64,000 bases of DNA, taken from the NCBI RefSeq assembly GCF_002095435.2, contig NZ_MJEJ02000052.1:124001-188000 (forward strand), given 5' to 3'. This document shows, one piece after another, positions 13,568 through 57,670 of this stretch (position 1 is its first letter; each line of letters begins with the position of its first letter). Below the pieces are notes generated by a model. It saw only the letters and a program-made list of their open reading frames with translations. It did not search any database and was not told the origin of the DNA. Source of the DNA: Williamsia sp. 1138 (lineage in GTDB: Bacteria; Actinomycetota; Actinomycetes; Mycobacteriales; Mycobacteriaceae). The position numbers and the translations under genes were made by a program.

Positions 13568-14401
13568 CTACAGACGGCTCGCGGACGTGGCGAGATTGAC
13601 TTCGAGCACGGTGCCGCTGGTGTAGCCGGGGTCGTTCACCAGATACATCACGGCGCGGGTGACGTCTTCGGGTTCGAGCCACGGAATGCCGAGTGGACTC
13701 AACGCGGCAAATCGCGGTGTGGCGTCGTCGATCGTGGGGGAGTCGATGTCGGGGCAGAAGACGCCGAACGTGTTGGGATTCATCACCATCGGAGTGTTGA
13801 CAGTGGTGGGGCAGACGACGTTGGCCGTGATCCCGAACGGACCGTTCTCGATGGCGACGGTCTTGATGAGGCCGATGATGCCCCATTTGCTCGCACCGTA
13901 GTGTCCGAGGTTCGCCATGCCGCTGCGTCCGGCTCCGGATGAGATGGCGATGATGCGGCCGTATCCCGCCGACGACATCGTGGGTAGAACCGCGCGGACG
14001 CAGTTGAAGGTGCCGGTCAGGTTCGTGTCGATCATGTCTCGCCAGACCTCGTCGCTGATCTCGGCGACCGTGGAGAATCCGCAGATACCTGCGTTGGCGA
14101 TCAGGATCTCGACGCCGCCGAGATCGACGATCGTGCGCTGTACGAGGTCGTCGACGGCCTCGCTGTCGCGGACATCGACCACGGTCGCGGTGGCGACGCC
14201 GCCCTCGCTGCGGATCAAATCGACAGTGGCATCGAGGTCTTCTTCGGTCGGCATCTCGTAGGGGACGGTTCGGATCTGGTCTGCGATGTCGGCGACCACG
14301 ACGTGTGCACCCGCTGCGGCGAGAGCGCGAGCATGCGCGCGTCCTTGACCTCGGGCGCCGCCGGTGACGATGGCGACCCGTCCGTCCAGTTCACGTGCCA
14401 C
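13568..14401 (-). CDS. mycofactocin-type SDR oxidoreductase
   Basis: 277-aa short-chain dehydrogenase. 'GRVAIVTGGARGQGRAHA' is the Rossmann start, and the insertion 'IRTVPYEMPTEEDLDATVDL' after beta-2 is the mark of the mycofactocin-dependent subfamily that holds NAD non-exchangeably. The active site is 'IAISSGAGRSG...YGASK' (Ser, Tyr, Lys all present). GTG at 14401 is preferred because GGAGAGG lies about 7 nt upstream; the reading frame extends 27 codons further but without a ribosome site. Probably oxidises an alcohol feeding the downstream amidohydrolase. Confidence 0.87.
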   Translation of the reverse strand: MARELDGRVAIVTGGARGQGRAHARALAAAGAHVVVADIADQIRTVPYEMPTEEDLDATVDLIRSEGGVATATVVDVRDSEAVDDLVQRTIVDLGGVEILIANAGICGFSTVAEISDEVWRDMIDTNLTGTFNCVRAVLPTMSSAGYGRIIAISSGAGRSGMANLGHYGASKWGIIGLIKTVAIENGPFGITANVVCPTTVNTPMVMNPNTFGVFCPDIDSPTIDDATPRFAALSPLGIPWLEPEDVTRAVMYLVNDPGYTSGTVLEVNLATSASRL

Positions 14402-27706: not shown

Positions 27707-28285
27707 TTATCGAGGGGTTGGGCTCAGGTGAGCTGAATTGAGATGAAGGGGAACGAAGCTGGTGTCGGCGTCGAACCAGCCGCGATGGGGGTCGTCCATG
27801 GATCCCAGCCACGCCGAGCTGGCCGATGTCGGGCCGAGGTCGTGAAAAGCGCTGCGGTAGTAAAGCAGTGGCTGTTTGTCAGTGGTTTCGGCGTCGACGA
27901 TCTCGCCGATGAAGATGAGGTGATCGCCGCCGTCGTATTCCGCCCACGATGTGCAGGACAGCGTGGCGGCCGCCCCGCACAGGACGGGGGCGGTGAGCCC
28001 GTCCGCCCAGACCGGACCGGGCTCGGTGGGCCGGCCCGCGAAGTGCATCGCAATGTCCACCTGGTCGGCCGCGAGGATGTTCACGGCAAACGGGGCGCCG
28101 CTGAGAAACCCGCATGCCTTCGACTTGCGAGTCATGGTGACCTGGCACAGACGTGGTTCCATCGAGATCGCGGTGAATGCGGTGACCGTGGCCCCGTGAG
28201 GTTCACCGTCGGCATTTGTGCAGGTGATGACCGTGACGCCGCTGGCAAACTGGCCGAAAATGTTTCGCACTCTGCCTTTGTCCAT
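27707..28285 (-). CDS. pheA2: flavin reductase component of phenol hydroxylase
   Basis: 192-aa NAD(P)H:flavin oxidoreductase that supplies reduced FAD to the oxygenase. '[20 protein letters not shown]', '[19 protein letters not shown]', '[11 protein letters not shown]' and '[11 protein letters not shown]' are the flavin-reductase-domain blocks. ATG at 28285 with GGAGG 7-8 nt upstream; longer in-frame readings would run into the regulatory region. First gene of the pheA2-pheA1 operon, divergent from the AraC regulator across 153 bp. Confidence 0.9.
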
Positions 28286-40133: not shown

Positions 40134-40284
40134 GCGGGCGACCCCCTGCCCGAACCCGCGCATTTAAGTTCGCGGTGATCCAAACCCACCTCACCTACGC
40201 CGACCACGGTGTCCTTGGCTTCGGCCGTTGCGCGGGCGTAACCACCGTTTGATTGTCTTCACGGCCGCGCCTACCGTCGAACCG

Positions 40285-40380
40285 AATCATCAAGAGCGGC
40301 CGAGAGACCCGGATTGTCGACGTCGCAGCAACCCATTCGCCGCAGGGCGAGCGTGGGTGCTACCGCCGGGACCGATGAAG
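40285..40380 (+). ncRNA. SAM riboswitch candidate (SAM-I/S-box-like)
   Basis: The leader of the operon shows: P1 TCATC/GATGA (40287-40291 with 40374-40378); the AAGAG turn; P2 GCGGC/GTCGC (40296-40300 with 40322-40326); the core 'GCAGCAACCC' at 40325-40334; P3 ACCCA/TGGGT (40331-40335 with 40354-40358) extended by CGCC/GGCG; and 'GGTGCTACCGCC'. CCCGG at 40308-40312 can pair with CCGGG at 40366-40370, the expected pseudoknot. These are the conserved elements of SAM-I-clan aptamers in the right order. It ends 32 nt before the GTG of the first LLM gene, so control of translation is plausible. Identified by eye, not by covariance model. Confidence 0.72.
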
Positions 40381-40411
40381 GGCGTGTTGTGTCATTTGTG
40401 CAGGAGTCCGC

Positions 40412-41479
40412 GTGAAGTTTCTGTTGATCACGCTGATCACCCATACCCCCGACCCCATCACCGGACTCACGCCGACGCCGGCGGAGCGCTTCCGGGAGGT
40501 CGTCGACAACGCCGTACTGGCCGAGGAACTCGGATTCGACGGGTACGGGGTGGGGGAGCGGCACGAGCGGCCGTTCATCTCGTCATCGCCCCCGGTGGTG
40601 TTGAGCAACATCGCTGCCAGGACATCGACGATCGAACTGTTCACCGCGGTGACCACTTTGAGTCTGCTCGACCCTGTGCGGGCGTTCGAGGACTACTCGA
40701 CTCTGGACAATCTCTCCGGCGGGCGTCTGCAACTCATGATCGGCAAGGGCAACGGCGCAGCGCAAGCGAAGCTGTTCCACGTCACCGAAGCCGATCAGTG
40801 GGAGCGCAACCGCGAGGGCTACGAGCTGTTCCGGCAGCTGTGGGAGAACGACACGGTCACGTGGGAGGGCACCTACCGACCATCGTTGACCGAGGCAGAG
40901 GCGCTTCCTCGGCCGCTACAGAAGCAGATCCGCATCTGGCACGGCAGCGCCACCAGTCGGGAATCGGTGGATCTGGCAGCAGCTTTCGGTGATCCGCTGT
41001 TCTCTGCGAATGTCACCAATCCGATCGAGCCCTACGCCGAGCTGATCGACTATTACCGCGAGCGGTGGGTGCACTACGGCCACGACCCGGCGGCTGCGCT
41101 GGTCGGTGCAGGTTCTGCAGGGTATTACGCCACGAAGAACTCGCAGGACGCGGTCAACACCTACCGCCCGATCTACGACGCCACCCTGGCCAGGATCGAG
41201 TCCTTCGGCCTTCCCAAGGTGTTCCCGACCCTCGAGGACGCGATCGAGCGGAGTTCGCTGCTGCTCGGGAGTCCGCAGCAGGTGATCGACAAAGTGTTGC
41301 GCTACCACGAGAAGTTCGGCCACGAGGTCATGCACCTGCACGCCGACGCGAGCGGGCTGACCGACGCCCAGCACCGTGATTCTCTGGAGCTGTTCCAGAG
41401 CGAGATAGCTCCGGCGCTCCGAAAGGAGATCCCGAGCCGGCCGATCTCCGCGCGCGTTTCGGCGGGGGTGCCGGCATGA
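40412..41479 (+). CDS. LLM class monooxygenase (first gene of SAM-riboswitch operon)
   Basis: 355-aa luciferase-like enzyme: 'ELGFDGYGVGERHERPFISS' near residue 40, 'LDNLSGGRLQLMIGKGNG' near 100 and 'LLLGSPQQVIDKVLRYHEKF' near 285. Related sequences are annotated as FMN-dependent monooxygenases. GTG with AGGAG 7 nt upstream. Overlaps the next gene (ATGA). Control by the SAM riboswitch suggests a role in sulfur or methionine supply; needs reduced flavin from a reductase that is not in the operon. Confidence 0.87.
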   Translation: MKFLLITLITHTPDPITGLTPTPAERFREVVDNAVLAEELGFDGYGVGERHERPFISSSPPVVLSNIAARTSTIELFTAVTTLSLLDPVRAFEDYSTLDNLSGGRLQLMIGKGNGAAQAKLFHVTEADQWERNREGYELFRQLWENDTVTWEGTYRPSLTEAEALPRPLQKQIRIWHGSATSRESVDLAAAFGDPLFSANVTNPIEPYAELIDYYRERWVHYGHDPAAALVGAGSAGYYATKNSQDAVNTYRPIYDATLARIESFGLPKVFPTLEDAIERSSLLLGSPQQVIDKVLRYHEKFGHEVMHLHADASGLTDAQHRDSLELFQSEIAPALRKEIPSRPISARVSAGVPA

Positions 41480-42591
41480 GCAGGGTGCCGCTGTCGATCC
41501 TGGATCTGTCGCCCATCAGCGAGGGTTCGGACGCGGCGACAGCCTTAAAGAACTCGGTGGATCTTGCGCAGCACGCGGAGCTGTGGGGCTATCGCCGGTT
41601 CTGGCTGGCCGAACACCACTTCGTGGCGGTCGCGAGCTCGTCTCCGACCGTCGTCGTCGGGCAGATCGCCGCTGCGACATCCACGATCCGTGTCGGCTCC
41701 GCAGCGGTGCAGGTGGGTCAACGAACCGCGGTCTCCGTCGTCGAGGAGTGGGGCATCCTCGACGCGTTCCATCCAGGACGCCTCGACCTCGGCCTCGGGC
41801 GGTCTGGGCAACGTCGCTCGGAAGCCCAGAACGCCCAGGCGACGCCTCTGGCGCCCGATAGGGTGCGCGAGGTCGTCGACGGTGTGATCATCCCGGCGCC
41901 GGTCGATCTGACCACTGCGCTGAAAACATCCCGACTGGCCGCGACCTTTGAGGTCCTGACCCAGCCCGGTTCGACACCGCCCGACTTCGGGGACCAGGTC
42001 GCCGACATCGAGGCGCTGCTCGGAGGTACCTACAGCACCACCGGTGGTGTGGAACTGCACGCACATCCGGGCGAGAACGCCGACCTGCAACTGTGGATCT
42101 TCGGCAGCAGCAAAGGACAGAGTGCACAGGTCGCGGGTGCGCGCGGCTTGCCGTTCGTGGCCAACTATCACGTCAGTCCTGCAACGACATTCGAAGCGGT
42201 CGAGGCCTACCGAGAAGCGTTCACACCGTCGAAGACACTCACCGAGCCGTATGTGGTGGTCTCGGCGGATGTGGTCGTCGCCGACGACGACGCGACCGCG
42301 ACGCGGCTGGCGTCGTCATTTCCGCAGTGGGTGCACAGCATCCGGAGCGGCCACGGCGCCATCGCCTACCCCGACCCCGCGACGGTCGCGCCGTTGTCCG
42401 CCGAGCAGTTCGACCTCGTCGCCGACCGCGTCGAAACGCAGTTCGTCGGCAGCGCCGACACCGTGGTCGGACGGCTCGAAGCTCTGCAGAAGCTCAGCGG
42501 AGCAGACGAACTCGTGATCACCTCCGTCACCCATCAGCACGACGACCGGCTCCGGTCACATGAACTGCTCGCCAAGGCGTGGGGTGTGTGA
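41476..42591 (+). CDS. LLM class monooxygenase (MsnO8/luciferase-group-1-like)
   Basis: 371 aa. 'LSILDLSPISEGSDAATALK' at the start is the typical N-terminus of the MsnO8-like group, followed by 'GYRRFWLAEHHFVAVASSS', 'RVGSAAVQVG' and 'DAFHPGRLDLGLGRSG'. It is translationally coupled to the gene before and followed 55 nt later by the SsuD-like gene. Group members are often found in sulfonate or sulfide-utilisation loci. Substrate unknown. Confidence 0.86.
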   Translation: MSRVPLSILDLSPISEGSDAATALKNSVDLAQHAELWGYRRFWLAEHHFVAVASSSPTVVVGQIAAATSTIRVGSAAVQVGQRTAVSVVEEWGILDAFHPGRLDLGLGRSGQRRSEAQNAQATPLAPDRVREVVDGVIIPAPVDLTTALKTSRLAATFEVLTQPGSTPPDFGDQVADIEALLGGTYSTTGGVELHAHPGENADLQLWIFGSSKGQSAQVAGARGLPFVANYHVSPATTFEAVEAYREAFTPSKTLTEPYVVVSADVVVADDDATATRLASSFPQWVHSIRSGHGAIAYPDPATVAPLSAEQFDLVADRVETQFVGSADTVVGRLEALQKLSGADELVITSVTHQHDDRLRSHELLAKAWGV

Positions 42592-42646
42592 CCAACTCTC
42601 CGGCGGGCGTCCCCGCCACCGCGAACTGTTCAGATAGGACGAAAAC

Positions 42647-43756
42647 ATGCCAGTAGAGTTCCTCGGGATCGCCGCCACCAACGACGGCACCGAGATCCAT
42701 CCGCGTACGAGCGCCAGTGCGTTCGACAAGGAATACACCCTCAAACTCGCTCGCGCACACGAAGATTTCGGCTGGGATCGTATCTTGTTCGCCTACGGCG
42801 CAGGTGCACCGGAGCCTGCGGCCGCCGCGTCGTACATCGTCAGCAACCTCGAGCGCATCCAGATCCTGCTGGCGCACCGGCCCAATGTCTCGTACCCCAC
42901 ATTCGCGGCCAAGACCTTCGCCACGCTCGACCAGATCTCGGGTGGACGGGTCACCGTGCACGTCATCACCGGTGGCAACGACACCGAGCAGCAGCGCGAG
43001 GGTGACTTCCTGTCCAAGGACGAGCGGTACGACCGCACCCGGGAGTACATCCAGATCGTCAAGAAGGTCTGGACCTCCCACGAGCCGTTCGATCACCACG
43101 GCACGCATTATCAGTTCAACGACTTCGTCTCCGACATCTTCCCGGTAGCTCAGCCCCGGCCCAACATCTCGTTCGGTGGGTCGTCGGCAGCGGCTTACGC
43201 GGTCGGCGGCGCCGAAGCGGACATCTATGCGTTGTGGGGTGAGCCTCTCGAGAACACCGCCGAGCAGATCGCCTCGATTACCGATTCGGCCGCTGCTGCA
43301 GGTCGAGAGAAGCGACCGCGCCTGCAGGTCGCCTTCCGGCCGATCATTGCCCCCACCGACGAATTGGCCTGGCAAAAAGCCGAATCCATTGTCGAGCAGC
43401 TGCATGCCCGGGCCGCGGGAGGAGCTGCCATCTCCCGTAGGCATTCCCTGACGGCGCCGCAGAACGCGGGATCGCAGCGGTTGCTCGGTATCGCCGATTC
43501 GGTTGATCGTTTCGGGGCTGCGGGCTGGACGGCCACGGCGAAGGCCACCGGCGGCGCCGGCAACTCGAATGCGCTGGTCGGTTCACCGGAGACGGTGGCA
43601 GCCGCTCTGCTCGAGTACTACGACCTCGGGATCGAGATCCTCTCGGCCCGCGGTTACGACCTCCTCGACGACGCCATCGATTTCGGACGATACGTCATAC
43701 CCATCGTACGCGAAGAGGTCGCCAAACGGGACAAGCGGATCCAGGGCGCGGCGTGA
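42647..43756 (+). CDS. SsuD-like FMNH2-dependent monooxygenase
   Basis: 369 aa, resembling alkanesulfonate monooxygenase: 'RPNVSYPTFAAKTFATLDQI', 'GGRVTVHVITGGNDTEQQRE' and 'LSKDERYDRTREYIQIVKKV', then 'PNISFGGSSAAAYAVGGAEA' and 'YALWGEPLENTAEQI'. These match SsuD positions that hold FMNH2 and the sulfonate. ATG with AGGACGA upstream. The fourth monooxygenase, at 49044, belongs to the same subgroup. Confidence 0.87.
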   Translation: MPVEFLGIAATNDGTEIHPRTSASAFDKEYTLKLARAHEDFGWDRILFAYGAGAPEPAAAASYIVSNLERIQILLAHRPNVSYPTFAAKTFATLDQISGGRVTVHVITGGNDTEQQREGDFLSKDERYDRTREYIQIVKKVWTSHEPFDHHGTHYQFNDFVSDIFPVAQPRPNISFGGSSAAAYAVGGAEADIYALWGEPLENTAEQIASITDSAAAAGREKRPRLQVAFRPIIAPTDELAWQKAESIVEQLHARAAGGAAISRRHSLTAPQNAGSQRLLGIADSVDRFGAAGWTATAKATGGAGNSNALVGSPETVAAALLEYYDLGIEILSARGYDLLDDAIDFGRYVIPIVREEVAKRDKRIQGAA

Positions 43757-43849
43757 CGAGCAGCAGTTAGAACTGCACTGATTCTATCGAAGATATTGGT
43801 GCACAACCATTTAGCGTAGTTGTTCTGCCCGGATCCATGGAGGAAATCG

Positions 43850-45475
43850 ATGATCGCACGTATGTCCCGCCCGCTGATGGCCGTTGCCGGCGCGGCGCTG
43901 ATGTCGGCAACGCTGCTCAGTGCCTGCGGCTCCGACGGCTCCTCGGGCGGAGGTGACGCCGGCCCGGCGCAATCGGGAGGCACGTTGCGCTACGGACTCT
44001 CGCAGGCTCCGACGTGCTCGGACCCCGCGCAGGGTGCCAGCAACCAGACGATCTATGTGACGCGCCAGGTGGTCGATTCGTTGACCGACCAGGATCCGAA
44101 GACCGGCGACATCACACCATGGCTCGCGGAGAGCTGGGAGATCAGTCCGGACGCGACGTCGTTCACGTTCAAGCTCAAGGATGGTGTCACGTTCAGTGAC
44201 GGCACGCCGGTCACAGCCGATTCGGTCAAGAAGAACTTCGATGCCATCGGAACACTCGGTGCAGCGAAGGCTCCGCTGGCCGGTAGCTACCTGTCGGGTT
44301 ACACGGGTACGACGGTCGTCAACCCGCTGACCGCGCAGGTGAACTTCGCCCAGCCGAACGCGCAGTTCCTCCAGGCCACCTCGACCTCCCAGCTCGGCCT
44401 GCAGGCCGACGCCACCGTCAGCCAGACTGCGGAGCAGCGGTGCCTCGGCGCCAACATCGGCAGTGGCCCGTTCACCTACTCCGACTGGCAGCAGGACCGT
44501 TCGGTGTCTCTCGCCAAGCGTGTCGGCTACAACTGGTCGTCGCCGGTCTTCGCGCACACCGGCGAGGCATACCTCGACACGATCGACTTCACGGTGATCC
44601 CCGAATCGGGTGTGCGCACCGGATCGTTGTCGTCTGATCAGCTCGATGCGGTCAGTGACGCACTGCCCCAGGACGCGCCGCAGATCGAGGCCACCGGCGG
44701 CGAGGTTCTCACCACCCCGAACCCGGGCGTGCCGTTCGGCTTTCAACCCAACGTCTCCCGTGGTGTCCTCGCTGATCCCGCAGTGCGACAGGCCCTCATC
44801 CCGGCGATCAATCGCCAAGAACTGATCGAGACCGTCCTCAACGACGACTTCAAGGTCGCGACGGGTTCACTGGCCGCCAACACCCCCGGATACAAAGATC
44901 TGTCGTCGGAGGTGACGTTCGATCAAGACAAGGCGAAGTCCATCCTCGACAAGGCCGGATGGATCGAAGGCAGCGACGGCATCCGCGAGAAGGACGGACA
45001 GAAGCTCTCGTTCACGCTCTCGTTCAGCGCGGTGTTCGCCGGCAACCAGGCGATTCTCGAACTGGTGCAGCAGCAGCTCAAGCAGGTCGGGGTCGACCTG
45101 AAGCTGGGCCTGGTCTCCAACGCCGAGTTCACGGCACTGCAGAGCAGCGGCGACTACGACGCGGTGTACTACAACACCACCCGCGCCGACGGTGACATCC
45201 TGCGCACCACCTTCGGTCTGGAGAGCCGTAACCTGAACAAGCGCGGCCCGATCCCGGCCCTGGACGACGCCCTCACCGCTCAGCTGGCGGCGACGGACAA
45301 GGCCCAGCGCGACGGCTACCTCGCCACCGCGCAGGAACAGATCATCTCGAACGGGCTGTGGGTACCGACCACCGAACTCTCTCAGATCATCGGAAAGTCC
45401 CCGAAGGCACAGGATCTGAAGTTCGACGCCTCTGCGCGGCTGGTGTTCTTCGACACCTGGATCTCCGGGAGCTGA
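43850..45475 (+). CDS. ABC transporter substrate-binding lipoprotein (family 5)
   Basis: 541-aa DppA/OppA/NikA-type receptor. A signal peptide with the lipobox 'TLLSAC' puts the lipidated Cys at residue 26, followed by a Ser/Gly linker. 'GTLRYGLSQAPTCSDPAQGA' and 'LAESWEISPDATSFTFKLKD' with 'VTFSDGTPVTADSVKKNFDA' are SBP-bac-5 signatures. ATG 43850 with GGAGGA upstream. Expected to bind the imported compound outside the membrane and hand it to the permeases encoded just after. Ligand unknown; a small organosulfur compound or peptide is inferred. Confidence 0.92.
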   Translation: MIARMSRPLMAVAGAALMSATLLSACGSDGSSGGGDAGPAQSGGTLRYGLSQAPTCSDPAQGASNQTIYVTRQVVDSLTDQDPKTGDITPWLAESWEISPDATSFTFKLKDGVTFSDGTPVTADSVKKNFDAIGTLGAAKAPLAGSYLSGYTGTTVVNPLTAQVNFAQPNAQFLQATSTSQLGLQADATVSQTAEQRCLGANIGSGPFTYSDWQQDRSVSLAKRVGYNWSSPVFAHTGEAYLDTIDFTVIPESGVRTGSLSSDQLDAVSDALPQDAPQIEATGGEVLTTPNPGVPFGFQPNVSRGVLADPAVRQALIPAINRQELIETVLNDDFKVATGSLAANTPGYKDLSSEVTFDQDKAKSILDKAGWIEGSDGIREKDGQKLSFTLSFSAVFAGNQAILELVQQQLKQVGVDLKLGLVSNAEFTALQSSGDYDAVYYNTTRADGDILRTTFGLESRNLNKRGPIPALDDALTAQLAATDKAQRDGYLATAQEQIISNGLWVPTTELSQIIGKSPKAQDLKFDASARLVFFDTWISGS

Positions 45476-45477
45476 TC

Positions 45478-46479
45478 ATGGGCCGGTACGTCGGATTGAG
45501 GGCATTGCAGGCGATCGTCGTCCTGTGGGCATCCTTCACGGTTGCTTTCGTGATCCTGTTCATCTTGCCGTCCGATCCGGTCAGCATTGCGGTGCAGGGT
45601 AATTCGGCAACTCCGGTCGATCAGCAGGCGGTCGAAGACCTGCAGGCGCGGTATGGGCTCGACCAGTCGCTGCTCTCGCAGTACTGGACCTCTCTGTCGC
45701 ACGCGGTCCGGGGTGACTTCGGCACATCGATCTCGACGGGGCAGCCGGTGACCACCGCGATCGGCGACGCGTTGCCGAACACCCTGGCGCTGGCAGTCTC
45801 TGCGGTGGTCCTCGCCGTCCTGTTCGGTGGTCTGATCGCCTTCGCGACCACCTACACCAAGGCCCAGTGGTTGCGCACCGCCTTGCAGGCGCTGCCCCCG
45901 CTGGGTGTCGCGGTGCCGACCTTCTGGGTGGGATTGATGCTGTTGCAGTTCTTCTCGTTCGACCTGAAGATCTTTCCGGCATTCGGCGACAAGGGGTTCT
46001 CGTCGCTGGTGCTGCCGGCGATCACCCTGGCCCTACCGACGGGCGCCGTGATCGCGCAGGTCCTGGCCTCGAGCATGGGCACCACCTGGCGACAGCCGTT
46101 CGTCGAGACCGCGCAGGCCAAAGGGGCGAGCCGGATTCGGGTCGTGCTGCACCATGTGGTCCGGCTGGCGAGCATTCCGGCGCTGACCATCGCCGGCGTG
46201 CTGTTCGGCAACCTGCTGGCCAGCGCGGTCGTCGTGGAGACGGTGTTCTCCCGCGCCGGCGTCGGCCGGCTGATGCAGACCTCGGTCATGGCCCAGGACA
46301 TCCCCGTGGTGCTGGGGATCGTCGTGTTCTCGACGGTAGCGTTCGTCGTCATCAACCTGGTCGTCGACCTGCTGTATCCGCTGATCGATCCGAGGATCGT
46401 CGAGTCCTTCCGGAAAAAGCCGGCTGCGCCCGACAAGGCCACACCGGCGGTCGACGACGCGGAGGTCGCTCATGTCTGA
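45478..46479 (+). CDS. ABC transporter permease (DppB-like)
   Basis: 333 aa, six transmembrane helices. N-terminus 'MGRYVGLRALQAIVVLWASF' is typical, followed by 'RYGLDQSLLSQYWTSL' and the EAA loop 'FVETAQAKGASRIRVVLHHV' contacting the ATPase. The ATG lies 2 nt after the receptor stop, and the gene overlaps the next permease by 8 bp. Confidence 0.92.
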   Translation: MGRYVGLRALQAIVVLWASFTVAFVILFILPSDPVSIAVQGNSATPVDQQAVEDLQARYGLDQSLLSQYWTSLSHAVRGDFGTSISTGQPVTTAIGDALPNTLALAVSAVVLAVLFGGLIAFATTYTKAQWLRTALQALPPLGVAVPTFWVGLMLLQFFSFDLKIFPAFGDKGFSSLVLPAITLALPTGAVIAQVLASSMGTTWRQPFVETAQAKGASRIRVVLHHVVRLASIPALTIAGVLFGNLLASAVVVETVFSRAGVGRLMQTSVMAQDIPVVLGIVVFSTVAFVVINLVVDLLYPLIDPRIVESFRKKPAAPDKATPAVDDAEVAHV

Positions 46480-47383
46480 TCTCATCCTGGCCGACAACGA
46501 GATCCGCGAGGTCGAGGCCGCAGCATCGGAACCCGTTGGTGTGGAGACCCGGCGCAGGCCTGCACGCAGGTTCGGCGTACGTGGTCTGTCGCAGTACGCC
46601 GTGCTCGCGATCTCGGTGATCGTGGTACTCGTCGTCATCGGATTCGCCCTCTTCCCGTCGGTGTTCGCGAGCGGAGACCCACTGACCGGTGTCCCTGCCG
46701 ACAAGTTCCAAGCCCCCAGCGCCCAGCACTGGTTCGGCACCGACAACATCGGCCGGGATGTCTACACCCGGGTCGTGCACGGGTCCGGATTGTCGCTGAC
46801 CGCGACGTTGCTGGCGGTGGGCATCGCGCTCGTCGCCGGTACCCTGATCGGGTTGCTCGCAGGGTCCATCGGCGGCATCGTGGACGCGTTCTTCATGCGT
46901 GTCGTCGATGTGCTGCTGTCGATCCCGGCACTGCTGCTGTCGCTGGCGCTGGTCACCGCGCTCGGATTCGGCACGGTCAACGTCGCGATCGCGGTCGGTG
47001 TCGCCATGGTGGCCAGCTTCGCTCGCGTCACGCGATCCGAGGTCCTGCGCGTGCGGCGGGCGACGTACGTCGAAGCGGCCTTCGCGTCCGGGGTCCGCTG
47101 GCCCACGGTCCTGTTCCGGCACATCCTCCGCAACTCCTACGCTCCGGTGATCTCCCTCGCCGCCGTGGAATTCGGTATGGCGATCCTGGCCGTCTCGGCA
47201 TTGAGCTTCTTGGGTTTCGGCGCCGTGCCGCCGACACCGGAGTGGGGGTCCCTGATCGCTGAAGGACGTAACTACCTCGCCGTGGCCTGGTGGATGACCA
47301 CGCTGCCCGGACTCGTCATCATCGCGGTGGTGCTCTCCGCCCATCGCATCGGACATCAATTCGACCGGGGTGGACACCGATGA
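46472..47383 (+). CDS. ABC transporter permease (DppC-like)
   Basis: 303 aa, partner permease. An N-terminal cytoplasmic stretch, then 'SAQHWFGTDNIGRDVYTRVV' (family signature), and the EAA loop 'YVEAAFASGVRWPTVLFRHI' with 'LSFLGFGAVPPTPEWGSLIA'. Overlaps both neighbours by a few bases, so the transporter genes are made together. Confidence 0.92.
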   Translation: MSDLILADNEIREVEAAASEPVGVETRRRPARRFGVRGLSQYAVLAISVIVVLVVIGFALFPSVFASGDPLTGVPADKFQAPSAQHWFGTDNIGRDVYTRVVHGSGLSLTATLLAVGIALVAGTLIGLLAGSIGGIVDAFFMRVVDVLLSIPALLLSLALVTALGFGTVNVAIAVGVAMVASFARVTRSEVLRVRRATYVEAAFASGVRWPTVLFRHILRNSYAPVISLAAVEFGMAILAVSALSFLGFGAVPPTPEWGSLIAEGRNYLAVAWWMTTLPGLVIIAVVLSAHRIGHQFDRGGHR

Positions 47384-49047
47384 GCAACGCGACTCCGGTC
47401 CTGCAGATCAAGGGACTACACGTTCAGTACGGTTCCGGTGCCGACGTTGCCAACGCGGTCGACGGCATCGACCTGGAGGTCGCCCATGGGGAGGTCGTCG
47501 CGGTCGTCGGCGAATCCGGGTCGGGTAAGTCGACCACCGCGCAAGCCATCATCGGGTTGCTGTCCGGAACCGGGAAGATCGTCGCGGGATCGGTGAGTTT
47601 TAGAGGTAACCGGATCGACAACATCCCCGATCGGGCACTGGAGAAGATCCGGGGCGCACACATCGGATTGGTACCGCAGGACCCGACGACCTCGCTGAAT
47701 CCGGTGACGCGAATCGGCGAGCAGGTGGGTGAAGTCCTCCGGATCCACGGACGGGCCAATCGCCGCACCGCCACGGTGGAGGCGCTCCGCATTCTCACCG
47801 AAGCCGGCCTGGACAACCCGGAACTCCGGATCCGGCAGTACCCGCAGGACCTTTCGGGTGGGCAGCGGCAACGGGTGCTGATTGGCATCGCCCTGGCGTG
47901 CGAGCCGGAACTGATCATCGCGGACGAACCGACGAGTGCACTCGACGTCACTGTGCAACGCCGGATCCTCGATCACCTCGACGAGCGGATCGCCGCCACC
48001 GGCGCTGCCGTTCTGCTCATCACCCATGACCTCGGGGTCGCGGCCGACCGCGCCGATCGGATCGTGGTCATGAGCGAGGGCACGATCGTGGAGACCGGTA
48101 CCGCGCAGCAGGTGCTGACGAATCCGCAGCACGAGTACACCCAGAAGCTCCTCGCTGCGGCACCGAGCATGACCGCGGTGTCCGGGGTCTCCGTTCGCAC
48201 ACCGCGCGCGGCAGCAGATGGTCCGCCGGTGTTGTCGGTACGACATCTGACCAAGACCTTCCGGGTCGGCCGGGGCAGCTCTCTCACCGCGGTCGACGAT
48301 GTCTCGTTCGACTTGCCGCGGGGACAGACGTTCTCGCTGGTCGGGGAGTCGGGTTCCGGTAAATCGACGACCGCCCGGATCGTCGCACGGCTGGAGACCG
48401 CGTCCTCGGGCTCCGTCGACTTCGAGGGCGCCCCGATCACCGATCTGCGCGGAAAGGCGCTGCGGGAGTTGCGGCGCCGCGTACAGCTCGTCCACCAGAA
48501 CCCGTATGCATCTCTGGATCCCAAGCTCACGATCGACAAGATCGTGGCCGAACCGTTGCAGGCCTTCGGTATCGGCTCCGCGCAGGAACGGCGCGACAAG
48601 GTGCGCGAGCTGCTCGACCAGGTGGCACTGGGGGACAAGTACCTGTCCCGCCACCCGGCGCAGCTCTCCGGTGGTCAGCGGCAGCGCGTCGCGATCGCCC
48701 GCGCCCTAGCCCTGAACCCGCAGCTCGTCGTCCTCGACGAACCGGTGTCGGCGCTCGACGTCTCCGTGCAGGCGCAGATCCTCGATCTGCTCGCGAGGCT
48801 GCAACGTGAGTACGACCTGAGCTACCTCTTCATCTCCCACGACCTCGCGGTGGTCCGCCAGATCAGTGACGGTGTCGCGGTGATGAGGCGGGGTCACATC
48901 GTCGAAACCGGGCCCATCGCGGATGTTTTCGACAACCCATCGCACGAGTACACGCGTGAACTACTCGATGCGATTCCAGGGCAGGCGATTCCAGGGCAGG
49001 CCATTCCAGGAAAGACGAGCTCCGGAAACCGGGTGGCTGTGTCGTGA
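47380..49047 (+). CDS. ABC transporter, fused double ATPase (DppD-DppF type)
   Basis: 555 aa with two complete nucleotide-binding domains in one chain: 'GESGSGKST' near residues 43 and 325, signature 'LSGGQRQR' near 165 and 430, and Walker B 'LIIADEPTSALD' and 'LVVLDEPVSALD'. Energises the importer encoded by the three preceding genes. The C-terminus carries a threefold AIPGQ/K repeat from a 15-bp tandem repeat (48970-49014). ATG overlaps the permease stop; its own stop overlaps the next start (GTGA). Confidence 0.93.
   Translation: MSNATPVLQIKGLHVQYGSGADVANAVDGIDLEVAHGEVVAVVGESGSGKSTTAQAIIGLLSGTGKIVAGSVSFRGNRIDNIPDRALEKIRGAHIGLVPQDPTTSLNPVTRIGEQVGEVLRIHGRANRRTATVEALRILTEAGLDNPELRIRQYPQDLSGGQRQRVLIGIALACEPELIIADEPTSALDVTVQRRILDHLDERIAATGAAVLLITHDLGVAADRADRIVVMSEGTIVETGTAQQVLTNPQHEYTQKLLAAAPSMTAVSGVSVRTPRAAADGPPVLSVRHLTKTFRVGRGSSLTAVDDVSFDLPRGQTFSLVGESGSGKSTTARIVARLETASSGSVDFEGAPITDLRGKALRELRRRVQLVHQNPYASLDPKLTIDKIVAEPLQAFGIGSAQERRDKVRELLDQVALGDKYLSRHPAQLSGGQRQRVAIARALALNPQLVVLDEPVSALDVSVQAQILDLLARLQREYDLSYLFISHDLAVVRQISDGVAVMRRGHIVETGPIADVFDNPSHEYTRELLDAIPGQAIPGQAIPGKTSSGNRVAVS
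48970..49014 (+). repeat. 15-bp tandem repeat, three copies, in coding sequence
   Basis: GCGATTCCAGGGCAG at 48970-48984 and 48985-48999, then GCCATTCCAGGAAAG at 49000-49014. In frame, it encodes AIPGQ-AIPGQ-AIPGK at the tail of the ATPase. Probably slippage in a non-essential tail. Confidence 0.85.
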
Positions 49048-50177
49048 CCCGCATCGCTCCGAGATTCCACTGGTTCCTGCCCACGGGCGGCGACGACGAG
49101 AGGCTCGGCGCGCGCTCGCACGGGGTGTCGATAGCCAGTGGGTACGTCGCGGACGCCGCCGCATCCGATGGGCATCGCGATGCGTCACTCGAGTATCTGA
49201 CCGAATTGGCCAGGACCGTCGACGAACTCGGCTACGAAGCCGTCCTGACACCCACCGGCGGGCATTGCGAAGACGCCTGGCTCGTGACAGCGGCGCTGAT
49301 ACCCGCAACCCGGCGCCTCAAGTTCCTCGTCGCGTTCCGGCCCGGTGCGGTCGCGCCCGTGCTCGCCGCCCAGATGGTCAGCACCTTCGACAGACTCTCC
49401 TCGGGGCGTATCCTGCTCAATGTCGTTGTCGGGGGCGACGATGCCGAGCAACGGTCATTCGGTGACACCCTGGGAAAAGACGAGCGGTATGCGCGTGCCG
49501 ACCAGTTTCTCGAGATCACCCGGGATGTCGGGCTGGGCAAACCCGTTCAGGTCGACGGGCCGTACTACACGATCGACCGACCGCGGTCGCCTGGCTTCGC
49601 CGGCCATCCGAGCGTTCCGATGCCGGATGTGTACCTCGGCGGATCGTCGACGGCGGCGATCGACGTGGCGGCCCGACGGGCCGACGTCTTCCTCACCTGG
49701 GGTGAACCGCCGGCTGCCGTCGGCGAGAAACTCGCGCAGGTCAAGCAACGGGCCGCTGATCTGGGGCGAACCATCCGCGGGGGCATCCGGTTGCATGTCA
49801 TCGCCCGCGACACCGCGGAGCAGGCCTGGCAGGCGGCGGACGACCTCATCGCCGGCGTCGACGCCGACACCATCTCGGCACGTCAGCAACAACTGGCCGC
49901 CATCGGATCCGAAGGTCAGCGGCGGATGCTCGCGCTGCATGGCGGCGATCGGGACAACCTGGTCGTCGGACCCAATTTGTGGGCCGGCATCGGACTGATC
50001 CGCGGCGGCGCAGGCACGGCGCTGGTCGGCAGTCACGACGAAATCGCCGACCGCATCGACGAATACCGGGACGCGGGTATCGAGGAGTTCATCTTCTCCG
50101 GCTATCCGCACATCGAAGAAGCCCGACACTTCGGCGTCGGTGTCCTCCCGAAGTACCGGTCGGGGCAGCGGATCTAG
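49044..50177 (+). CDS. SsuD-like FMNH2-dependent monooxygenase (last gene of operon)
   Basis: 377 aa. 'PRFHWFLPTGGDDERLGARS' at the start is typical of SsuD; 'KFLVAFRPGAVAPVLAAQMV', 'GRILLNVVVGGDDAEQRSFG', 'LGKDERYARADQFLEITRDV' and the C-terminal 'FIFSGYPHIEEARHFGVGVL' strengthen this. Predicted to cleave a C-S bond of a sulfonate to release sulfite, using reduced FMN. GTG overlaps the ATPase stop, so importer and enzyme are coupled. Confidence 0.9.
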   Translation: MTRIAPRFHWFLPTGGDDERLGARSHGVSIASGYVADAAASDGHRDASLEYLTELARTVDELGYEAVLTPTGGHCEDAWLVTAALIPATRRLKFLVAFRPGAVAPVLAAQMVSTFDRLSSGRILLNVVVGGDDAEQRSFGDTLGKDERYARADQFLEITRDVGLGKPVQVDGPYYTIDRPRSPGFAGHPSVPMPDVYLGGSSTAAIDVAARRADVFLTWGEPPAAVGEKLAQVKQRAADLGRTIRGGIRLHVIARDTAEQAWQAADDLIAGVDADTISARQQQLAAIGSEGQRRMLALHGGDRDNLVVGPNLWAGIGLIRGGAGTALVGSHDEIADRIDEYRDAGIEEFIFSGYPHIEEARHFGVGVLPKYRSGQRI

Positions 50178-55485: not shown

Positions 55486-56019
55486 TCACGGGTGGGCCCG
55501 GAGACCATGGAAGGTCGAACGATGGAAGACCAGCGGCTCGCTGGGTGCGGGAACGGCCAGGGCGTCAACCCGACCGACCACGAGATCGTGGTCGCCAATG
55601 GGCTGATCAAGGTGGACGCTGCAATCGATCCACGCGTGCGCCCCGGTGAGGCGCGGGACACCGTTGGTGGCCGGGCTCCAGGTGACGTCGACGAACTTGT
55701 CCGTGCCGCTGCGAGCGAACTTTCGCGCCAGCAGGTGCTGGTCCTGCGCCAGGACGTTGACGCAGAACCGACCGTTCTCGATCACGTGCGGCAGGGTGGT
55801 CGAGTCTTGTCCCGCGAAGAATCCGACGAGCGGCGGATCGATCGAGATCGACGTGAATGATCCCACCGTCATGCCGGCCGGCGCACCCGTCACGTCGATC
55901 GTGGTAATAATGACCACGCCGGAACTGAAGTGTGCCAGTGCTTCTCGGAAAGACTCGCTCACTCCGGCGGGATCGGTGGCGCTGATCGTGGCTGATGCTT
56001 CGGTGGTGTTGGTTGTCAT
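55486..56019 (-). CDS. flavin reductase domain protein
   Basis: 177-aa NAD(P)H:FMN oxidoreductase. 'FREALAHFSSGVVIITTIDV', 'GMTVGSFTSISIDPPLVGFF', 'GRFCVNVLAQDQHLLARKFA' and 'DHDLVVGRVDAL' are the family blocks. ATG 56019 with GAGAGG upstream. In an operon with an LLM monooxygenase and an SRPBCC protein, it is the natural supplier of reduced FMN. It might also serve the reductase-less operon at 40412-50177, but that is conjecture. Confidence 0.9.
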   Translation of the reverse strand: MTTNTTEASATISATDPAGVSESFREALAHFSSGVVIITTIDVTGAPAGMTVGSFTSISIDPPLVGFFAGQDSTTLPHVIENGRFCVNVLAQDQHLLARKFARSGTDKFVDVTWSPATNGVPRLTGAHAWIDCSVHLDQPIGDHDLVVGRVDALAVPAPSEPLVFHRSTFHGLRAHP

Positions 56020-56081
56020 GGGTTCCTCTCGATCGGCTGCCGAAGCCGGTGCGTCGTTACGCCCCGGCTTCGGCAGCGCGC

Positions 56082-56495
56082 CTACACTCCGACGACCTGG
56101 GCCTTCAGTTCGGTCAGTGCATCGGAGTAGATGCCCTCGATGGCGGTGACCAGACCAGCTTCGACCTCCGCGGATTCGGCACCGAAGTCGGCGGACCACT
56201 TCACGACGCCGGCGTCGTCGCCGTCCTCGAGCACCAGGATCGTGGATTGATAGTGCTGCAACGGGAGTGGACCGTCGATGTACTGGTAGGTATATGTGCG
56301 CGCCGCGTCGAGGTGCTCGATGATCCGCTCACGAGCCGGCTCTCCGTCGGTGAAGACAACGTGCCGGACGTCGTCCTCCATTCTGGATGAACTGATGGCG
56401 GGAATCCACGCTGCGACGTCGGCGATGTTGCCGATCCGCTCCCAGAGCGTGTCGGCGGAGACCGGAAAACGTCGTTCGACATTGACAGTGGCCAT
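56082..56495 (-). CDS. SRPBCC (polyketide-cyclase-like) protein
   Basis: 137-aa START/Bet v1-like fold: 'VNVERRFPVSADTLWERIGN', 'IADVAAWIPAISSSRMEDDV', 'RTYTYQYIDGPLPLQHYQST' and 'GLVTAIEGIYSDALTELKAQ' at the end. It has a deep hydrophobic pocket in the family, suited to binding or cyclising a small molecule. ATG 56495 begins 5 nt after the LLM stop. Probably binds the substrate or product of the LLM enzyme. Confidence 0.84.
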   Translation of the reverse strand: MATVNVERRFPVSADTLWERIGNIADVAAWIPAISSSRMEDDVRHVVFTDGEPARERIIEHLDAARTYTYQYIDGPLPLQHYQSTILVLEDGDDAGVVKWSADFGAESAEVEAGLVTAIEGIYSDALTELKAQVVGV

Positions 56496-56500
56496 GACGA

Positions 56501-57670
56501 CTACACCCGTCCCAGCTCGGCTTCGTACTTCTTCGTCATGTGTTCGACGGCCTTGACGTGTTCGGCGGCCTGGCCTTCGCGCACGGCCTGGGCGCGGGCG
56601 GCGGCATCGAGCATCGGCTGTGCCTGACCCTGGAAGTACGGCATCACGTCTTGCGCGAACAGTTCGTACGAGCGGCGGGTCGCTTGCGGGTTGGCCCAAT
56701 CATGGCCCTGGATAAGCAATGTGCCGAATCCGCCGGACTGGTCTACGAGACGCTGGACCTGCACGCGGGCTTCCTCGGCCGTACCGATCACACCGATGCC
56801 CGAGGTATTGATGAAGTCGATCATCTCTTCGCAATTGGTGCCCCGGACGTCCATCTGCGGGAACGCGGCGACGTGCTGGAGGTAGTTGAACCAGTACTCG
56901 ATGCCATGGGCGACGTCCTTGTACGCCTGCTCTTTGGTCTCCGCGATGTGGAACGGCCCCACGAGGCGCCAGGTGGACCGATCGACCTCGTCTGTACGAC
57001 CCGACTGCGCGGCAAACTCTTCGAGCATGCCCCAATGATGTTGCAGGGCGCTGAAACCGTCTGCGGTCAGGGTCGCGGCAATCGAGAGCAGGCCGATTCC
57101 GTACTTGCCGGCGAGACGGGCTCCGGTCGGCGAAGCGATGGCAGCGACGACGACGTCGAAGAGAGGGTCGGAGTACGGCGCCATCTGGATTTTGGCGTCG
57201 AAGAGTTCGTGGGTGCGGGTCTTGGCTGTGACGGTCTCGCCGCGCAAGAGCCGCATGATGATGTCGGTGTTCTCCGCCAACAACTCTCGGGTGTCGATCT
57301 GCGACAGACCCAGCATCGCGGCGTCGGTGGGCAGCGAGCCCGGGCCGAGGCCGAACAGTGCACGGCCCTGGGTGAGGTGATCGAGCATCACCATGCGTTC
57401 GGCCGCCCACAACGGATTGTGGTACGACACGGAGGTGACGCCGGTGCCGAGCTTGATGCGACTGGTGCGTTCACCGGCGGCTGCGATCATGATCTCCGGG
57501 GATGCGTATATCTCGGCTCCGGCGGAGTGGTGCTCGCCGAACCAGGCCTCGTCGTAGCCGAGGGCCTCGAGGTACTGAACGAATTCCAGGTCACGCTGCA
57601 ATAGCAACGTCGGATTCTGTCCCGGTGTGTGGATCGGCGCGAGGAAGGTTCCGAACTTCAACCTGCTCAT
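56501..57670 (-). CDS. LLM class flavin-dependent monooxygenase
   Basis: 389 aa. 'LKFGTFLAPIHTPGQNPTLL' at the start, 'GYDEAWFGEHHSAGAEIYAS' near 45 and 'LDHLTQGRALFGLGPGSLPT' near 97 place it in the luciferase-like monooxygenase branch near limonene and alkanal enzymes. ATG with AGGGAG upstream. First gene of a four-gene operon with an SRPBCC protein, a flavin reductase and a hypothetical protein. Substrate unknown. Confidence 0.88.
   Translation of the reverse strand: MSRLKFGTFLAPIHTPGQNPTLLLQRDLEFVQYLEALGYDEAWFGEHHSAGAEIYASPEIMIAAAGERTSRIKLGTGVTSVSYHNPLWAAERMVMLDHLTQGRALFGLGPGSLPTDAAMLGLSQIDTRELLAENTDIIMRLLRGETVTAKTRTHELFDAKIQMAPYSDPLFDVVVAAIASPTGARLAGKYGIGLLSIAATLTADGFSALQHHWGMLEEFAAQSGRTDEVDRSTWRLVGPFHIAETKEQAYKDVAHGIEYWFNYLQHVAAFPQMDVRGTNCEEMIDFINTSGIGVIGTAEEARVQVQRLVDQSGGFGTLLIQGHDWANPQATRRSYELFAQDVMPYFQGQAQPMLDAAARAQAVREGQAAEHVKAVEHMTKKYEAELGRV

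Follow-up and report, generated by a model that had tools for sequence, protein, structure and literature searches.

Riboswitches of the SAM-I family (S-box; Rfam RF00162) lie ahead of sulfur genes and share a P1-P2-P3 layout, a GCAACC and GGUGC core and a pseudoknot joining a loop to J3/4. We describe here a leader with these features in the soil bacterium Williamsia sp. 1138 (contig NZ_MJEJ02000052.1; full genome of 6.08 Mb), found in a stretch of 64,000 nt that was analysed as a whole and is referred to as the window. The leader differs from the described element in being compact, without P4, in scoring under the family cut-off and in its target genes, which are importers and luciferase-like monooxygenases (LLM); in addition, relatives of the leader carry a Shine-Dalgarno sequence at P1. 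It precedes a + strand operon of eight genes, encoding four LLM and one family-5 ABC importer, which is probably a sulfur-scavenging operon repressed by S-adenosylmethionine (SAM).

The Bacillus CmoO/CmoJ salvage route for S-alkylcysteines, presented in the available part of PMC10863075 as acetylation, sulfoxidation, C-S cleavage and deacetylation, and the yxe route for S-(2-succino)cysteine (PMC9706529, available part) likewise use flavin-dependent LLM that oxidise and cut C-S bonds. The Rhodococcus and Nocardia versions of our locus share with CmoO/CmoJ a GNAT gene, an ABC importer and a YtnJ-like LLM, i.e. much of the toolkit as set out in that part of PMC10863075. The window operon, in contrast, has no GNAT, YtnJ-like LLM or deacetylase and carries SsuD-like LLM with a family-5 importer; the GNAT and YtnJ-type genes are present in relatives and at a second locus of the host, and the scan of gene families turned up no deacetylase. 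In Corynebacterium glutamicum, which has seu monooxygenases and ssuD2 in cg1147-cg1156, sulfonates and their esters are handled under sulfate shortage by several monooxygenases (PMC1779776, available part). The ssu/seu genes are activated by the protein SsuR whereas the window operon has a SAM-I leader.

In Rhodococcus qingshengii IGTS8 (PMC8557817) and Gordonia NB4-1Y (PMC7661421), the available parts of both papers report sulfur-starvation proteins low in Cys and Met, among them LLM and ABC importers, which are raised when sulfate is replaced. The word riboswitch occurs in neither main text, and we recognised no orthologue of the operon described here in their lists of starvation proteins. 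Finally, short open reading frames (ORFs) with Cys codons are already described ahead of actinobacterial cys operons (family NF042934; PMC1262725, available part); similar ORFs precede sulfur genes in the relatives studied here, with the difference that they stand directly behind a SAM-I aptamer. Among the matches listed from the open-licence literature, there was no report of a SAM-I riboswitch before an operon of the window type, nor of one coupled to a Cys leader peptide. Systems of this general kind have been described, and the present combination, with its compact P4-less S-box regulon, adds a variant to them.

A compact SAM-I aptamer ahead of the operon

We investigated the S-box-like aptamer that the sequence-only reading had placed before the operon. 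In a 351-base search, cmscan aligned the whole RF00162 model (1-108) to 40284-40381 of the + strand with an E value of 1.6e-6, P4 being missing and corresponding to a deleted stretch of the alignment. P1 pairs TCATC (40287-40291) with GATGA (40374-40378), P2 pairs 40296-40300 with 40322-40326, P3 starts at 40328, and the pseudoknot CCCGG/CCGGG joins 40308-40312 to 40366-40370; 33 nt separate the end of P1 from the GTG start of the first gene, gene A, at 40412. At E<=10 over the 6.08 Mb genome, the leader is the sole reported RF00162 match (150 of 403 first-look candidates scored). SAM-IV (RF00634) is absent among the leader matches of the 351-base search, and its own search of the genome at E<=0.1 gave three other places, the leader not among them. 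The SAM-I/IV variant RF01725 is unlisted for the leader in the 351-base search, which shows the best clan member only.

Homologous leaders were sought in 60 regions around matches to the solute-binding lipoprotein (SBP) of the operon, most of them orthologues of 60-94% identity, with three of 41-49% and one 35% paralogue of the host itself. A strict regular expression for ATCAAGAG leaders gave three places, and a looser one recovered the leader family, which was present in 40 of the 60 regions (37 by the full pattern) and in two copies in 12. From the 49 full-pattern matches, window included, 42 were aligned, near copies or long-looped forms being left out (two each in loci L038, L041 and L042, one in L063). 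Covariation across these 42 sequences exhibited the P1-P2-P3 and pseudoknot arrangement of SAM-I: 96.4% of 1210 cells were paired, and double-sided changes were found in 8 pairs and 49 cells, counted as sequences and not as events, a level reached in 0 of 500 shuffles. Slid-structure controls gave 33-45% paired cells; as the structure was drawn from the known SAM-I architecture and partly from the same sequences, this control somewhat favours it. The P1 pair 3/102 is CG in 36 leaders and UA in 6 (the window, four other Williamsia-type leaders and one Dietzia relative), and the pseudoknot pair 27/92 is UA in 16, UG in 15 and CG in 11.

When eight relatives' loci were submitted to a gathering-level Rfam search, 13 hits were obtained, 12 SAM-I and 1 SAM-IV. 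All ten compact leaders found by pattern in L036, L037, L040, L053, L062 and L069 passed, with 44.6-54.9 bits, and the remaining two SAM-I leaders were those of L088 and L089. In L088, a SAM-I and a SAM-IV element are divergent, about 165 nt apart (13744-13833 - and 13998-14112 +). Our own model R1, which has the window leader as one of its 42 rows, gives that leader an E value of 3.4e-20. The Williamsia leader is confirmed as a SAM-I-family aptamer.

From the promoter-like element upstream of the aptamer (Table 1), transcription is predicted to start on the aptamer's first base. The general promoter scanner did not list this element. A TTGnnn-N16-18-TAnnnT pattern, picked after viewing the window, ends 0-15 nt upstream of the aptamer in 41 of 129 distinct upstreams versus 3 of 20,000 random 70-mers. 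As for the mode of switching, S-boxes of Bacillus use terminators. In many relatives of the window leader, GATGG, the 3' strand of P1, continues into the Shine-Dalgarno sequence GGAGG of the following ORF, and SAM, by stabilising P1, should mask that sequence; the ORF concerned is gene A itself in Nocardia L058 and L067. By analogy, we would guess that the window leader acts by translational control. A P1-coupled occlusion of the Williamsia Shine-Dalgarno sequence was considered and rejected, as constrained folding of five leaders, modelled without the pseudoknot, showed no effect.

The operon and the composition of its proteins

The eight genes run in the order A, B, C, SBP, two permeases, a fused double ATPase and D (Table 1), their nearest named orthologues being in W. 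soli (94% identity), W. muralis (91%) and W. faeni (85%), which places the host in Williamsia and outside Gordonia and Rhodococcus. The sequence-only reading had listed seven or eight same-strand genes, most of them overlapping, and profile scans agree with the families that it named. With corrected starts, four of the seven junctions overlap (A/B by 4 nt, PermB/PermC by 8, PermC/ATPase by 4 and ATPase/D by 4), while gaps of 55, 93 and 2 nt are found at B/C, C/SBP and SBP/PermB. For the SBP, the first permease and the ATPase, the longest ORF probably overstates the gene, and starts at 43850, 45478 and 47380 are preferred. The importer is complete for the family-5 (SBP_bac_5) type, with an SBP, two permeases and two ATPase domains. 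Gene B belongs to the MsnO8 family, its score exceeding the cut-off; the SBP reaches 340.6 bits with TIGR04028, under the cut-off of 468.5.

Table 1. Features of the leader and operon in the window (positions on the + strand of the 64,000-nt stretch)
Feature	Position	Strand	Evidence or remark
Promoter-like element TTGATT-N17-TACCGT	40249..40277	+	read from sequence; predicted transcript start ~40284
SAM-I (S-box) aptamer	40285..40381	+	RF00162 35.5 bits; own model R1 85.7 bits (window leader among its 42 rows); covariation
Shine-Dalgarno AGGAG of gene A	40402..40406	+	23 nt past P1; spacing alike in other Williamsia leaders
Gene A, LLM, 355 aa	40412..41479	+	GTG start; nearest TIGR04036 (CE1758 family), under cut-off
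Gene B, MsnO8-family LLM, 371 aa	41476..42591	+	TIGR03558 288 bits, cut-off 166.95
Gene C, SsuD-like LLM, 369 aa	42647..43756	+	TIGR03565 208.9 bits, cut-off 518.2
Possible second S-box relic (3' P1 strand and Shine-Dalgarno, tail CCCGGATCCATGGAGG..ATG)	43828..43849	+	alignment with W. faeni
SBP, family-5 solute-binding lipoprotein, corrected start	43850..45475	+	PF00496 244.3 bits; lipobox LLSAC by eye
ABC permease 1 (DppB/NikB type), corrected start	45478..46479	+	family profiles
ABC permease 2 (DppC/NikC type)	46472..47383	+	family profiles
Fused double ABC ATPase, corrected start	47380..49047	+	two ABC_tran stretches
Gene D, SsuD-like LLM, 377 aa	49044..50177	+	TIGR03565 434.1 bits, cut-off 518.2; PDB 7jv3 E 2e-112

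The proteins show an extreme depletion in sulfur amino acids. Neither B nor C contains any Cys, or any Met beyond the start, and A has no Cys and 2 Met after the start, where about 10 Cys and Met would be expected in each at the window background of 2.76%, taken from 53 other window proteins called by a simple in-house gene caller (binomial, uncorrected: 3.2e-5 for B, 3.4e-5 for C and 3.1e-3 for A). The depletion is only mild in D and in the permeases of the window. Across loci, mean Cys and Met contents were 0.67% for A, 0.31% for B, 0.21% for C, 1.06% for D, 0.78% for the SBP and 0.48% for the YtnJ-like LLM, to be compared with 2.39% for 201 other proteins. This composition supports a role in sulfur starvation, independently of the riboswitch.

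As the sequence-only reading had also noted, the operon contains no flavin reductase gene, which must come from elsewhere. The genome has nine PF01613 matches, of which those in the window are at 27836-28255 (-) and 55501-55935 (-). The top match of the genome belongs to an HsaB-like flavin reductase (55486-56199, -) that adjoins another LLM gene (56504-57670, -), 5 kb downstream of the operon. Nothing ties this reductase to the operon; it could supply reduced flavin in trans.

The set of LLM is fluid among relatives. The W. muralis stretch has neither B nor D, W. faeni has six LLM (A, B, C, an F5-type, a YtnJ-like and D), and most Rhodococcus and Nocardia stretches have no C and no D, with a YtnJ-like LLM instead. 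By tblastn over 61 stretches (the window and the 60 regions), 5 contain C and 6 contain D. Gene C, searched at E<=1e-70, had no match in the 2-3 Mb genomes of genus g3, which is presumed to be Corynebacterium. W. faeni (L035/L130) further carries a full promoter and a second S-box (R1 76.9 bits) directly before the SBP gene; the window and three other Williamsia-type genomes have neither the YtnJ-like gene nor an S-box at this position. In the window, the tail at 43828-43849, which R1 does not report, looks on alignment like a deletion relic of that second S-box. The LLM complement of the operon is best read as interchangeable.

Of two related importer/LLM loci in the host, that of the window has a SAM-I leader and the other has SAM-IV leaders. 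This second locus, L091, on another contig (G000:C5:57179-74795), encodes a GNAT, two LLM (one YtnJ-like), an Hsp90, a class-V aminotransferase, an SBP5 importer, an FAD oxidase, a GST and an MsnO8-type LLM, and two divergent SAM-IV riboswitches lie between its aminotransferase and SBP genes (C5:64540-64653 - and 64865-64983 +). A third SAM-IV of the host (G000:C24:145752-145861 +) is upstream of an apparent O-acetylhomoserine sulfhydrylase gene, judged from its first residues only. Among the regions retrieved, the record of Kitasatospora arboriphila NRRL B-24581 (L129/L034, NZ_JNYV01000002.1) has a Williamsia-type sequence, with 90% SBP identity and a W. muralis-like gene order, and is probably mislabelled.

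The S-box regulon and leader peptides in relatives

Of 151 genomes of the family, 45 have an R1 match, and these are spread over 13 of the 31 genera. Among the nine genomes of the host genus, the leader and an SBP orthologue go together: five carry both and four carry neither. At the level of the class, 98 of 296 genomes match R1 at E<=1e-4 and just 16 matches reach 60 bits, those below being probably ordinary SAM-I elements. The named SBP loci are the 80 of 399 with the highest SBP similarity, and many come from genomes that were used to build R1; 77 of the 80 contained an R1 match, with 97 matches in total. The linkage to sulfur genes holds across genera: for 88 of 88 S-boxes found by pattern on the + strand of the named loci, the next recognised gene within 700 nt belongs to one sulfur cluster (cystine-type permease 40, SBP5 31, A 10, GNAT 6, B 1), in a count that recognises genes of the query set only, other genes in between not having been looked for.

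The relatives' clusters add a YtnJ-like LLM, a GNAT and a cystine-type importer to the gene set. A common order in Rhodococcus and Nocardia, with many variations, is S-box, permease, ATPase, TcyA-like SBP, FAD oxidase, GNAT, S-box, SBP5, permease, permease, ATPase, LLM, YtnJ-like LLM, DUF1684, MsnO8 LLM. The closest solved structure of the YtnJ-like LLM is Bacillus subtilis YtnJ (PDB 1tvl, E 1.1e-73), which we take to be CmoJ. These genes suggest a salvage of the C-S bonds of S-alkylcysteine-type compounds and sulfonates. Part of the cluster may also be represented in expression data: IGTS8_peg5783-5785 (TcyC ATPase, TcyA, SoxA), raised in R. qingshengii grown on dibenzothiophene without sulfate according to the available part of PMC8557817, correspond, in gene names and gene order alone, to the S-box cluster of R. 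qingshengii IEGM 1359 (L186).

In many relatives, a Cys-codon peptide (H[VI]DLCR..C) follows the S-box immediately, with its Shine-Dalgarno sequence abutting or overlapping P1 (L186 from 8649 on, L140 from 1377 on, L102 and many others). Among 75 distinct sequences downstream of S-boxes, 50 have a short ORF of the type ..RLHVDLCRLSTSICHS (pattern D[LIV][CR]R); a slightly different pattern gave one after 44 of the 88 S-boxes of the named loci, where such peptides stand before importer genes only (44 of 71, compared with 0 of 17 before A, B or GNAT). Nine relatives' peptides were scanned with NF042934 ('putative leader peptide', cut-off 27 bits), which 6 reach, 3 scoring 22.5-24.9. Such peptides were not found in the Williamsia leaders. 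In the window, MKGVLCHLCR.. (ATG at 40375) was considered as a leader peptide and rejected, as it has no early stop, is not kept in W. muralis or W. faeni and has no NF042934 match. In other genera (L119, L121, L122, L123, L099), an S-box with a leader peptide precedes other genes, including an OsmC-like ORF and an SBP-looking lipoprotein, judged from their first residues.

The arrangement of an S-box followed by a Cys leader peptide suggests, from its sequence, a control by SAM and cysteine in series. As the ribosome-binding site of the leader peptide is continuous with the 3' side of P1, expression of the importer genes would require low levels of SAM and of cysteine alike. It is possible, at somewhat short of an even chance, that in Rhodococcus and Nocardia the S-box gates a cysteine attenuator in this way (peptide ending ..H(V/I)DLCR..C), that the S-boxes placed directly on monooxygenase or GNAT genes sense SAM alone, and that the window operon is a one-input form. 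If true, one natural 5' leader would sense both sulfur end products in two layers; should the series of SAM aptamer and Cys leader peptide work as its appearance suggests, it would form a compact logic gate of natural origin.

A probable role in sulfur scavenging and its alternatives

Several observations weigh against a SAM-repressed scavenging operon. The leader in the window stays under the gathering cut-off of Rfam (35.5 against 44.4 bits), so that a whole-window search at that level lists nothing, and R1 finds one strong match in the host genome, the window leader, a second place being weak (21.6 bits, E 0.095). Of the 151 family genomes, 106 have no R1 match. The plain minimum free energy (MFE) of the leader is no better than that of shuffles (z +1.72; 189 of 200 fold equally well or better); as it is uninformative, the case for the leader rests on homology and covariation. 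Shine-Dalgarno accessibility was unchanged whether P1 was forced or barred (RNAfold, five Williamsia leaders, without the pseudoknot), and the terminator scan listed none between the aptamer and gene A. On the side of the proteins, A, C, D and the SBP all remain under curated functional-family cut-offs, so that homology names no substrate; the operon is without the GNAT and YtnJ-like genes that point to an S-alkylcysteine route; 3 of 48 other window proteins of at least 150 aa are also near 0.5-0.6% Cys and Met; and the match to the IGTS8 genes is limited to names and order. The sub-threshold score, the unconvincing MFE and the lack of a visible expression platform could be taken to mean that the leader is a chance resemblance or a decayed, functionless S-box in Williamsia. 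This is most improbable, because five Williamsia-group leaders keep P1, P2, the base of P3 and the pseudoknot while their flanks diverge, with changed pairs (UA for CG in P1, GU or UA in P2), and the window leader scores 85.7 bits with R1, of which it is itself a row. The sequence-only reading would have been refuted by the joint absence of a covariance match and of pairing conserved in homologues: no match was found at the Rfam cut-off, but the sub-threshold match is significant and the pairing is conserved.

The function of the genes can be read in other ways. That the operon handles sulfonates and sulfonate esters like C. glutamicum ssu/seu, with a family-5 importer and SAM control, would agree with the closeness of D to alkanesulfonate monooxygenases (PDB 7jv3, 1m41), the SsuD-like character of C, and the seu and ssuD2 genes mentioned above; we consider it somewhat unlikely, as C and D are both under the SsuD equivalog cut-off and are rare in the 61 stretches, and the importer is of family 5. 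A dedicated stepwise pathway for one complex organosulfur compound, each LLM performing one step, is unlikely in spite of the four different LLM and one importer encoded by overlapping genes of one transcript unit. A pathway with fixed steps ought to be kept whole, and the LLM set shifts among close relatives, from W. muralis to W. faeni and on to Rhodococcus and Nocardia, while the importer and the S-box persist. The sequence-only reading had proposed uptake followed by stepwise desulfurisation: the first part agrees with an importer and LLM placed under one SAM-I leader and bearing a sulfur-starvation signature, whereas the dedicated stepwise route agrees less well with this fluidity. We judge it very unlikely that the importer carries a metal chelator, nickel or a peptide, with LLM acting on a metallophore and a secondary S-box link. 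The closest solved relatives of the SBP are nickel-binding proteins and AgaA, which do not decide the substrate, and the fused ATPase exceeds the cut-offs of NikD (424.7/318.7 bits), NikE (398.3/332.6), CntD (407.3/380) and CntF (408/385), with a score that sums its two halves. Nevertheless, the SBP and the two permeases score below the equivalog cut-offs of NikA, NikB, NikC and Opp (NikA 174.2 of 393, NikB 209.5 of 447, NikC 221.2 of 358.5 bits), and the S-box linkage and the Cys/Met depletion fit a limitation in sulfur, not in metal.

We therefore prefer, given the fluid LLM set, a broad scavenging module to a fixed pathway. In such a sulfur-scavenging operon, the transcript would have the aptamer at its 5' end; with abundant SAM, this SAM-I aptamer would fold and the expression of the eight genes would be lowered. 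At low SAM, the family-5 importer would take up organic sulfur compounds, and the four FMNH2-dependent LLM, fed by a flavin reductase encoded elsewhere, would oxidise them and break their C-S bonds, making the sulfur assimilable. The preferred substrates would be S-alkyl and other S-conjugated cysteine derivatives together with alkanesulfonates, and gene B might, as a guess, perform the CmoO-type step.

Rhodococcus and Gordonia are studied for fuel desulfurisation and for the breakdown of fluorinated sulfonates, and according to the available part of PMC8557817 it is not known by what route desulfurising strains take up their sulfur source. The RNA switch described here, present in 13 of the 31 sampled genera, ties poorly annotated importers and LLM to sulfur supply and tells when these genes should be on.

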